This document shows, one piece after another, positions 46,685-50,615 of a stretch of 64,000 bases of DNA (within the stretch, counting starts at the first letter, position 1; each line of letters opens with the position of its first letter). The position numbers and the translations under genes are program-made. Under the pieces are notes generated by a model that saw nothing but the letters and a program-made list of their open reading frames with translations, searched no databases and was not told the origin of the DNA. Source of the stretch: Lodderomyces elongisporus (Eukaryota; Ascomycota; Pichiomycetes; Serinales; Debaryomycetaceae); assembly GCF_030384665.1 (NCBI RefSeq), contig NC_083674.1, positions 1,178,001-1,242,000 on the forward strand. Reading direction: 5' to 3'.

Positions 46685-46870
46685 GTTTGAATGGTAGAGG
46701 CTGAAAAAAATTTTTTAGAGATTGAATGCTAGTGGTTGCAAAGAAAGAGATTTATGGTTGTTGTTTTTCTATTCCGTTATGATGTGTTTTGTTTTGTTTT
46801 GATATCATGTGTTTTGTAATGTGATTTCTTTATTCGCTCAGTATTTCACCCTTCTTTCTGTTCCCCGTTT

Positions 46871-47041
46871 TGATACTTTTAAACTATGAAAAACAAAAGT
46901 TTTGTAAATTTTTCCTCGTTATATATTCTCCCAACTCGTATATAAATTCAAAGTGTATGACTACGCTAGCCTTCAGGATTTGTATAGGTAATCAATCTTC
47001 ACTTCGATAGTAAAAGTTTCACATTTCAAGGACCGTAGACA
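46871..47041 (-). repeat. Left (3') LTR-like repeat
   Basis: 171 bp, starting TGATACTTT and ending ACA in plus orientation. It shares with the right copy TGATACTTT, CTATGAA, TTATATATTCT(C/T)CCAA(C/T)TC, ATTCAAA, GCTAGC and TGTATAG(G/C)TAAT in the same order and spacing. On the minus strand it starts TGT, preceded by GGGTGGA. Confidence 0.75.
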
Positions 47042-47059
47042 TCCACCCTTGAACCTCTT

Positions 47060-47600
47060 TTTTTGTTAATTAAAAATTGTACGTAAATTTCTTGAATTGC
47101 ACATATTGCGGCTTTCTTATTGTATTAGTAAACATGTCGGCCATTTGCGACTTAGTTAATAAATATTCTACTTTTGCAACAAGGTTTCTGATGGAATCAC
47201 AACGAATACCAAAATTCTTGTCCTCATAGGTAAACACTGAGTACTTTATTATACTAATGGTATATTTAATGGTTTCATAAATAATTTTCGGACTAAGTTG
47301 AACATCAAACTCTTGGAATACGCCACTTAACTACATAATATCATCAATGGCCTCACTAAGTGAGGCACATTCTGCTTTGATTTGTGCTTATTGAAACAAC
47401 AGATTGTTTCCTCGAACTCCAAGTAATGGGTCTATCTGCATATATGAACACATAAACGGAATTTGGCCATTGTTAGACTTTATCATTTGCCCAATCAGCA
47501 TCACAATACGTTTCGGCTAAAATTTCTTTGTTTTCATTTTTACTAAACTGCATTTTCTCTTGTTCCTTTAAGATACCTCAATGAATATAGAAAGTGATTC
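47060..47600 (-). pseudogene. Copia pol remnant (end of RT and RNase H)
   Basis: Minus-strand translation in shifting frames gives canonical copia pieces in the right order: LRYLKGTREN (47549-47581, the RT/RNase H junction), TYCDADWANDK (about 47480-47512), PITWSSRKQSVVSIST, then after a frameshift AECASLSEAIDD, and finally LTKSQMADMFTNTIRKPQ (about 47090-47160). Stop codons and frameshifts break it, so it is inactive. Confidence 0.85.
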
Positions 47601-48044: not shown

Positions 48045-49805
48045 TTAGGCCCCTCTTTTGTCAGAGCTCGATTCTTGAGGCCCTTTGAAAAACTTCAATA
48101 TCATCTGTCGAAATTGAGCATCATTCAACGACTTCTGAAATCCATCTGTGACAAAAGTATATTTATCAATTTCCCATCTGGCTGAAGCCCAAGTATTGAA
48201 ATCTTCATCAGGTGGGGGTGATACTTTCTGATATTTATCCATATAAATGTTTTTAATTTCTTGATTCTGAACCACAAATCTTTTGCCTAGATTACATAGA
48301 GGAAGCATCGGTTCTATCATCCTCATTTTTTCCTGGTAAGTATTTTCAATCTTTTCCTTCTTTCTACTGAGTTCTTCCAAAATAGCATCCATCTCTTCTT
48401 CCCTTTGCTTTAAAAGTTGATCTATTCCCGTAGATAATGTAGCCACTTTTTCATATGAATCTCTGATCCTTTTTTTCTTGGCGCGAAATTGAGCAAACTT
48501 ATCAAATTTCCAGTTATGAATAAGTCTACCAAGATCCCCCATCATGAAACTAAGACCTATCTTCCCTGGATCTGGATGTTCATGACAAAATTCTCCGATC
48601 TGGTACATATTATCAAACCTAGTGTAGAACATCTCTACCATATCTCCGGCTTCTTCCCGTTTGAAAGCAGACCTAAATTGAGAGGCGGCTTCCTGTAAAT
48701 AATCGTGCATAAAATCTGAACCAAACAATTGCTTTTCTAGCGCATCAACATTCTCCTTTATCCTAAATTTTTTCTCCAGGGATGAATTTGTGTGATGAAG
48801 TACTGGTCTATTATTAACGCCTTCAGTTTCAAATTCTACGGCTGGTGTATCTGTGAACGGCTCAGGTACCGGTGCGCTATCTTTGAAATACAGTATACCA
48901 CGATATGTGTGCTCTGATGCACCTCTATCAAGATGAACAGCATCCGAAAATCGTTGTGTACCAGAATACACAGGTTGCATACTAAACATTCCAGAATTCT
49001 TATTAGTTTCAAGTTGGTATTTCAGGTTAGACAAAGGTTGAGGAGCAAGGCAGTTTGTAGCAAGATGTCCAGGTTTTTGACAATTTAAACATTTAGTCAC
49101 TTTCTCACAGACAAGTGCCTTAAGGCTTCCCGAAACAAAATCTGTATTATTTTCCATCCTATCACGCACAATGTGTTGTAAATTTATCAATGTAAAATCT
49201 TCCCAACCAGTACCATAAAGATGACGATATGAGCTGACGAAATCATCAACAGGAAAACCTTCTTTCTTCAAATATGCAAGATACACAATCGTATTGTAAA
49301 TCTCGGGACTAAATCGTTTTTCAATAAGCGTGTCTAGACGATCATAAGAGTTTTTAAACAAAGCTAACGTTAAACCCTCCTTCAGCCTCGAAGTAGTGTT
49401 AAATTTATCGCACATGATACCTATAGCAGCAGGAACTGTGATGTCTCCATATGTTGAGCGCAAGAACAAATACAACTCACGCCCAGTGCCATCAAAACTA
49501 TTCACTTCTTGAAGCACATAGCCACTCGCAGTGTCTTTTAGGATCAACCTGATGATACTGTCAACTAATTTTATAACTTCCCTTCTAGTAGCATCGTCCT
49601 CTCCCTCGATGGAAGATACTTCCCCATTTTCTAAGTAAAAAATTAAGTCAGGTGAAATATCGTTGCATCTTTTTGTTAGAATTTTGTTCCAATCATAATA
49701 ACTAGCCTTGCTTGTAAGTAGTAGACTGTTTGGAAAGTTTGAGTTGGAGCTGGAATCGGTATAACGGCTCATAACCTGTTGTAAGTACTGTACCCGCGCA
49801 GTCAT
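48045..49805 (-). CDS. Gag-derived ORF with zinc knuckle and novel C-terminal domain (possible domesticated gene)
   Basis: 586 codons, ATG 49805, 27 bp inside the 5' LTR-like repeat. N-terminal Gag-like helical region (about 35-230), CCHC knuckle C239-x2-C242-x4-H247-x4-C252, then LDRGASEHTY (292-301), which resembles the copia aspartic protease site L-D-(S/T)-G-A-S-x-H but has Arg at the Ser/Thr position, followed by a short protease-like stretch (to about 330). Residues 330-586 are a charged region with a predicted coiled coil (about 435-495, LLKQREEEMDAILEELSRKK) and aromatic patches; I do not recognise it and it does not look like integrase or RT. The frame is fully open while the LTRs and pol around it are decayed. 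A TATA-like TATATAATG in the LTR (49883-49891, minus) lies about 80 bp upstream. Either an exapted Gag gene or a non-autonomous element's single ORF. Confidence 0.8.
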   Translation of the reverse strand: MTARVQYLQQVMSRYTDSSSNSNFPNSLLLTSKASYYDWNKILTKRCNDISPDLIFYLENGEVSSIEGEDDATRREVIKLVDSIIRLILKDTASGYVLQEVNSFDGTGRELYLFLRSTYGDITVPAAIGIMCDKFNTTSRLKEGLTLALFKNSYDRLDTLIEKRFSPEIYNTIVYLAYLKKEGFPVDDFVSSYRHLYGTGWEDFTLINLQHIVRDRMENNTDFVSGSLKALVCEKVTKCLNCQKPGHLATNCLAPQPLSNLKYQLETNKNSGMFSMQPVYSGTQRFSDAVHLDRGASEHTYRGILYFKDSAPVPEPFTDTPAVEFETEGVNNRPVLHHTNSSLEKKFRIKENVDALEKQLFGSDFMHDYLQEAASQFRSAFKREEAGDMVEMFYTRFDNMYQIGEFCHEHPDPGKIGLSFMMGDLGRLIHNWKFDKFAQFRAKKKRIRDSYEKVATLSTGIDQLLKQREEEMDAILEELSRKKEKIENTYQEKMRMIEPMLPLCNLGKRFVVQNQEIKNIYMDKYQKVSPPPDEDFNTWASARWEIDKYTFVTDGFQKSLNDAQFRQMILKFFKGPQESSSDKRGA

Positions 49806-49832
49806 TTCACACTACTTTATGTTATCACAATC

Positions 49833-50006
49833 TGATACTTTCAAAAAAACTATGAACCAGAAAAATTAGGGAGTATGTACCGCATTATATATTCTTCCAA
49901 TTCTTACAAATATTCAAATTTCATTTTCATGCTAGCTATCAATCTCTGTATAGCTAATAAATGTAAAGTACATTAACTCCGTTTATAAATAATATATTGT
50001 TCTACA
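49833..50006 (-). repeat. Right (5') LTR-like repeat
   Basis: 174 bp, TGATACTTT...TCTACA in plus orientation; on the minus strand TGTAGA...AAGTATCA. Nearly the same length as the left copy and clearly diverged from it. It contains the TATA-like sequence upstream of the gag-like ORF. The minus-strand sequence just inside it (GATTGTGATAAC, 49821-49832) is where a tRNA primer site should be; the tRNA was not identified. Confidence 0.75.
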
Positions 50007-50615
50007 TATGTCACAGTGCGCAATGAACTAGCGCCATTGTGCCTATATTTCTATTTTCTAAAATATCGGAAATATACGGATATAAAGGAATATGACTTGT
50101 TCATTATAATTTAGTGAAGAAATAAAATAATATAAATGAGACAAATGTACTCAATGTAAACTTGTATCAATTTATATGAAATTATCAATAAATATCAGTT
50201 TATATGGTCACAACAAGTTAAGCATAATCTAGTGGATATTCAGAGGAATTGATCAGCCTACTGAACCTCTTCACTTATAGGTTGTGCAATACAAACTACA
50301 ACTTACACTTAAACACTGTGCTGTTATTACAGCATCTTCAGACACTGGAATACTTTCTCAGAATGTGTAGGTTCTAAGCATAAATGTAATCGCTGGTTCT
50401 AGTGAGCGAGAAGCAAGATTCTAGTGCACAGCAGTCGCACACTTACTTTAATTTACGTGGCTATGTGACAACATAACAATCAAAGAATTTATAACTCCAC
50501 TTCAACCTCCCCCCCCTTCATCCTTCTCCCCCCTTCATCATTCACGTTCCCGAATCTGTTTTAAAGTCTGTGTTTATTAATGATTTATTACTACCAATAC
50601 ATTTTAGTTGCTTCT
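50007..50615. other. Spacer between retroelement and CBC2
   Basis: 609 bp of mostly normal-complexity DNA. It has a near-palindrome GCGCAATG/CATTGTGC (50018-50042) directly outside the LTR, direct repeats TTCTAGTG (50397 and 50419) and a CCCCCC-rich patch (50508-50532). It may hold an older solo LTR fragment or the 3' UTR of CBC2; nothing firm. Confidence 0.45.

Follow-up and report, generated by a model that had tools for sequence, protein, structure and literature searches.

A candidate retained Gag-derived gene within a decayed Ty5-like copia relic of Lodderomyces elongisporus

Inside the decayed relic of a Ty5-like copia retrotransposon of Lodderomyces elongisporus, one reading frame runs uninterrupted for exactly 586 codons. 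Is this frame a gene kept by the host, a relic that has escaped mutation by luck, or part of an element family that moves in trans? We addressed this question in a window of 64,000 nucleotides (the whole stretch of DNA analyzed here, C2:1178001-1242000) and in the genome to which it belongs (16.09 Mb, 8 contigs). On its right, the open reading frame (ORF) is flanked by a gene for an RRM protein, named CBC2 in the first-pass annotation, and on its left by one for a metallophosphoesterase. Translation followed table 12, with CTG read as Ser at the four CTG codons of the ORF; the openness of the frame is independent of this reading, since table 12 alters no stop.

The open frame and the element around it

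The ORF and its parts were delimited as follows.

48045..49805, minus strand: 586-codon ORF, a Gag-derived fusion (ATG at 49805, stop codon 48047-48045)
49023..49805, minus strand: Ty5-like Gag (capsid), residues 1-261, with 58% identity to the open C1:1556066 Gag
49050..49091, minus strand: CCHC zinc knuckle, C239 C242 H247 C252 (motif visible in the sequence, weak profile matches)
48867..48959, minus strand: dead aspartic protease start, residues ~283-313 (alignment and tblastn, limits approximate)
48048..48866, minus strand: tail, residues ~314-586 (decayed homologue in C1 to about residue 458)

The ORF had been described in the first-pass annotation as Gag-derived, which holds for residues 1-261 and hence for only about half of its length. 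Residues 8-134 match the Pfam Ty5 Gag N-terminal domain (PF17241, E = 2.2e-24). The zinc knuckle had been called intact, and its motif is indeed present with the spacing C-x2-C-x4-H-x4-C, although its Pfam score of 16.4 bits falls under Pfam's own cut-off of 20.8 and retroviral nucleocapsids match it weakly (best E = 0.0031). Downstream of Gag, the protease start reads LDRGAS where relatives have LDSGAS, so that D-R-G replaces D-S-G. Integrase and reverse transcriptase were searched for at the locus, and neither was found. Measured against a functional copia retrotransposon, the locus has no protease D-S/T-G, and only an RNase H remnant of pol was found.

The remnants of the element outside the ORF are listed below.

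46810..47045, minus strand: left (3′) copia LTR, Gag start codon lost (boundaries judged by eye)
47063..47582, minus strand: decayed RNase H end of pol, in three pieces (tblastn and alignment)
49766..49776, minus strand: primer-binding-site-like GGTTATGAGCC, complementary to the tRNA-Met anticodon arm
49777..50507, minus strand: right (5′) copia LTR, interrupted in its upstream part by the nested solo LTR (outer limit placed by eye)
50009..50470, no strand assigned: Ty3/gypsy solo LTR, TGTCACA...TGTGACA, nested in the right copia LTR

The RNase H remnant, the sole part of pol found, carries two frame changes and in-frame stops across its three pieces, in agreement with the earlier description of a pol fragment riddled with stops and frameshifts. 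The divergence that had been noted between the LTR-like repeats was likewise borne out: the two copia LTRs are identical at 147 of 209 aligned bases (70%, K2P 0.378). Because the right LTR is closer to an LTR on C6 (K2P 0.245) than to the left LTR, the two may not be a true pair, as far as sequence distances indicate. The flanks show no recognizable target duplication for the copia element. The left LTR carries more noncoding changes of its own than the right (31 versus 18, p = 0.085, under three gap settings; 35 versus 18, p = 0.027, under a fourth), a difference that is no more than suggestive. The start codon of Gag and, at 49884-49891, a TATA-like element both lie within the right LTR. The retention of this element had been singled out previously; it is present as described, but the left LTR and the copies on C6 and C1 have it too, which makes its retention unremarkable.

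Half-molecules of tRNA-Met prime Ty5-like elements. The GGTTATGAGCC site lies directly after the 5′ LTR and inside the ORF, where it is read as part of V-M-S-R. Its complement occurs at eight genomic places, the locus itself and seven others; two of these seven lie in recognized tRNA-Met genes, at the anticodon, and at the other five a bacterial-mode tRNA finder saw no tRNA. The same finder reported no tRNA genes in the window.

Part of the right-hand repeats that had been attributed to the copia element proved to be the younger Ty3/gypsy solo LTR at 50009-50470; the remainder stays with copia. The solo LTR is flanked by a 5-bp target duplication, ACATA (50004-50008 and 50471-50475), and shares 96% identity with the LTRs of a full-length element, C3:1324930-1333190. 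That element has its domains in the order reverse transcriptase, RNase H, then integrase, which is the Ty3/gypsy order, and a recent move is suggested by its own two LTRs, which do not differ at any of 461 sites.

Related loci and the tail of the frame

A search of the genome for Gag returned nine places, the window ORF included. The closest of these is an open frame on C1:

C1:1556066-1556851, plus strand: Gag-only paralogue, 261 codons, open frame with a decayed tail behind it

This Gag is 58% identical to that of the window over 260 codons and 51% identical over residues 1-358, and the remaining seven Gag places are 25-33% identical to the window Gag. The 261 codons of the C1 Gag contain no stop or frameshift, whereas the homologous C1 tail behind them contains many. 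Ahead of any frame-breaking gap, there are 4 stop-making differences in 49 codons of the C1 tail, compared to 0 in the 261 Gag codons (probability ~6e-4). A Fisher test on stops plus frameshifts (12 versus 0, p = 9e-8) was given no weight, its counts not being independent. In the C1 RNase H region, one tile was weakly matched (z = 4.5), and a search for a 3′ LTR at C1, judged by unshuffled scores, returned none that was convincing. The right LTR, used as a DNA query, matched one other genomic place, on C6, at 76% identity; this search is blind near 70% identity and missed the window's own left LTR. Many near-identical copies elsewhere in the genome, which the first-pass annotation had said would count against its reading, were looked for and not found: the closest Gag is at 58%, the only LTR match in that search is the one on C6, and the tail has no second copy detectable as protein.

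Such a second copy of the tail was sought in the genome with the last 256 residues as a protein query, and the best other match had an E value of 0.175. Compared with a protein collection, residues 330-586 matched solely the same protein from another assembly. Several candidate origins were tried and rejected. An integrase, a protease, or another Gag is not indicated, since the Ty5-like gag-IN/pol proteins of C3, C4, and C6 have no match in the tail at E = 0.01; a gene captured from the same genome is set aside on the lack of the second copy just described; and the matches to known families (Pfam 'Muted', E = 0.008-0.01; NCBIfam, E = 0.11; PDB, E = 1.3) are all at chance level.

In its codon usage, the tail is host-like from residue 351 on. 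On a codon score trained on 15 host ORFs of the window (their range, 0.018-0.215), the tail frame beats the other five frames, with in-frame values of 0.081 for residues 351-470 and 0.094 for residues 471-586; residues 262-350 score only 0.028. In the alignment with C1, residues 262-310 scored 97, residues 310-358 scored 93, and residues 359-458 scored 102; the highest scores in a null made from 318 other pieces of the genome were 56, 53, and 68, respectively. For residues 400-500 and 459-586, the signal did not rise above this null. As the C1 homologue is colinear, the two loci separated only after Gag had been joined to the protease start and to at least the initial part of the tail.

Both frames also occur in other assemblies. 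A collection of 5.8 billion proteins was searched three times, with scoring in one of the searches confined to the 7992 candidates that had the most words in common with the query, and only two protein clusters matched. The first (P0002; 586 amino acids, 7 member sequences, compared via one representative) differs from the window ORF at 6 of 586 residues, 4 of them at CTG codons, which leaves 2 real differences. The second (P0003; 261 amino acids, 14 member sequences, likewise compared via one representative) differs from the C1 ORF at 8 of 261 residues, 2 of them at CTG codons, which leaves 6. Full-length, near-identical proteins of the window ORF and of its C1 paralogue are thus present in other assemblies, where they are known as proteins without genomic context. 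According to PMC10294660, the two main clusters of L. elongisporus lie 176,721-177,579 SNPs apart, which by our own arithmetic is ~1% of the genome.

Age of the insertion and selection on the frame

The nested solo LTR suggests a minimum age for the insertion that does not depend on the copia LTR pair. With one outgroup, it carries 12 changes of its own over 380 sites, and a second outgroup gives 10 over 311; the corresponding counts for its reference are 3 and 2. The estimate rests on these 10-12 changes, which are assumed to postdate the insertion. With indels included, the probability that 586 codons stay open under neutrality is 0.028 at 2.4% change and 0.007 at 3.2%, the indel rate of 0.06 per substitution being taken from one gap to 17 substitutions in the solo LTR comparison. 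Substitutions alone give 0.13 and 0.07, respectively. The outer range, set by the counting limits on 12 changes, extends from 0.089 at 1.6% to 0.0005 at 5.5%. If the copia LTRs are a pair, the age rises to ~0.19 per site per lineage, and 0 of 500 neutral simulations remained stop-free. It had been argued that a neutral ORF of such age should have been broken. That expectation finds no more than suggestive support in a survival probability of 0.007-0.03 (outer range, 0.0005-0.09) that becomes far smaller only if the LTRs pair.

Purifying selection on Gag had also been proposed, a claim that stands for the pairwise comparison and cannot be placed on the window branch. Over 260 Gag codons, the window and C1 differ with dN = 0.296 and dS = 0.810, and their dN/dS of 0.365 rejects a value of 1 (2dlnL = 26.8). 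A transposon Gag pair in the same genome yields a similar dN/dS of 0.335 (four more distant transposon pairs were saturated and left out), so the value of 0.365 alone cannot separate selection by the host from selection on an element. Branch models with three transposon outgroups gave dN/dS estimates of 0.34 for the window and 0.31 for C1, neither value being identifiable: fixing dN/dS at 1 costs a 2dlnL of 1.0 and 2.1, respectively. Positions identical in three other Gags are kept equally by both loci (window, 40/76; C1, 41/76; no difference).

For the tail, the comparison with C1 is neutral-like. Across residues 262-460, 125 of 161 changes are nonsynonymous (0.776), compared to a neutral expectation of 0.758, in an alignment that is poor (35 gaps) and biased toward neutrality for that reason. 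Smaller pieces of the tail show no clear departure (0.814, 0.717, 0.723, and 0.783, compared to expected values of 0.759, 0.744, 0.770, and 0.767). Amino acid constraint on the tail is therefore not visible against the decayed C1 homologue.

Competing readings and known systems

We favor, though not decisively, the reading that the ORF is a Gag-derived gene that the host has kept beyond the death of the Ty5-like copia element it came from, with the C1 locus as its Gag-only sister; we put the probability of such retention at roughly 0.55. The ORF would be transcribed from the old 5′ LTR, its capsid part may still self-assemble and bind RNA via the knuckle, and its tail may contribute a further module, perhaps a helical one. 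Most likely, it would serve the cell in a ribonucleoprotein or capsid-like capacity, or would once have defended it against a relative that is now extinct. A bolder version, which we hold only tentatively, is that two adopted capsid genes in this one yeast descend from a Ty5-like copia lineage that has died out, one a 261-residue Gag-only protein and the other a capsid and knuckle fused to a module of ~270 residues, which would together form a fungal copia counterpart of Arc/PNMA/RTL.

That the frame is instead young or lucky, the left LTR and the RNase H fragment being older and the right LTR with the Gag fusion a later arrival that is still unbroken, strikes us as unlikely, if the strongest of the competing accounts. 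It would explain why the right LTR is nearer to that on C6 than to its supposed partner (K2P 0.245 versus 0.378), why no copia target duplication was recognized, and why the tail changes look neutral. However, with a nested solo LTR that is ~3% changed, 586 open codons are improbable (0.007-0.03), a near-identical full-length protein occurs in another assembly, and the searches of the genome turned up no near-identical sister. The absence of such a sister also bears on a non-autonomous family, in which Gag and tail between LTRs were moved in trans by related Ty5-like enzymes and selection acted on the element rather than the host. The Gag-plus-tail layout common to two loci, the retained LTRs and primer-binding-like site, the dN/dS resembling that of a transposon pair, and the related pol genes in the genome are all consistent with such a family. 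Yet only two such loci were found, at 58% identity over Gag and without a near-identical pair; beyond C6, no other family LTR was found at high identity; and C1 has a decayed tail and no convincing 3′ LTR, a point softened by the weak RNase H-region match (z = 4.5). We consider this account improbable.

Co-assembly of capsids requires close relatives. This matters for the suggestion in the first-pass annotation that the ORF is an anti-retroelement restriction factor, which turned out to be its least-supported part. A domesticated factor of the Drt2/p22 type, poisoning the assembly of related capsids, would have the same starting point, namely the relic of a copia Gag whose capsid frame is still intact, and Drt2 is a proven yeast case (PMC10951436). 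In the one genome searched, however, no close target was found, the Gag places apart from C1 being 25-33% identical, and we regard this account as the least probable of those weighed here. Restriction of a living element is for the same reason an unlikely role for the ORF.

Under the reading we prefer, retention by the host, the known systems that the ORF most resembles are adopted capsid genes. The best-known examples come from animals and are mostly Ty3/gypsy derived, as are Arc, PEG10/RTL, and PNMA. Like these genes, the window ORF is a Gag in single copy and a candidate for retention by the host; it differs from them in being copia derived, fungal, and known from sequence alone. With the Ty5/Tca5 group of Ty1-copia elements, the locus shares the Gag domain PF17241, a Gag start inside the LTR, and a primer site matching the tRNA-Met anticodon arm, whereas it differs in its altered protease start, its extra tail, and the lack of any integrase or reverse transcriptase found. 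The nearest known case is DRT2, the domesticated Ty1′ GAG of Saccharomyces cerevisiae, which is likewise an intact Gag-derived ORF in a copia-type relic among solo LTRs, with the rest decayed or gone (PMC10951436). Among strains with good data, 40 of 40 carry an intact DRT2, whose dN/dS is 0.84; this gene spans the capsid C-terminal region, has restriction activity, and has living relatives to restrict (PMC10951436). The window ORF, in contrast, keeps the whole Gag with its knuckle, is fused to an unrelated tail, and has no close target that we could find. The accessible part of the open-licence literature on Lodderomyces retrotransposons and Gag makes no mention of a domesticated Gag in Lodderomyces. 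If our reading is correct, a whole copia Gag with its knuckle (DRT2 being a truncated Gag; PMC10951436), a unique module, and a Gag-only sister would make capsid adoption testable by simple gene removal in a yeast.

Other remnants of related elements were observed elsewhere in the genome. At C6:388645-389955 (minus strand), adjoining an LTR of the same family, 437 open codons encode reverse transcriptase/RNase H in which YVHD replaces YVDD; the Gag search had no match there. A Gag remnant at C4:1881594-1882253 (minus strand) keeps 220 open codons; its knuckle lies in a different frame, and fragments of integrase follow it. At C3:1197021-1198256 (plus strand), a stand-alone ORF of 412 codons combines Gag with a protease barrel (PF17241, E = 1.9e-9; PF22936, E = 1.7e-11); CCHC and D-S-G were not seen in it, no pol match lies behind it, and its codon score of 0.109 is host-like. 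From these sequence features, it is another candidate adopted Gag gene.
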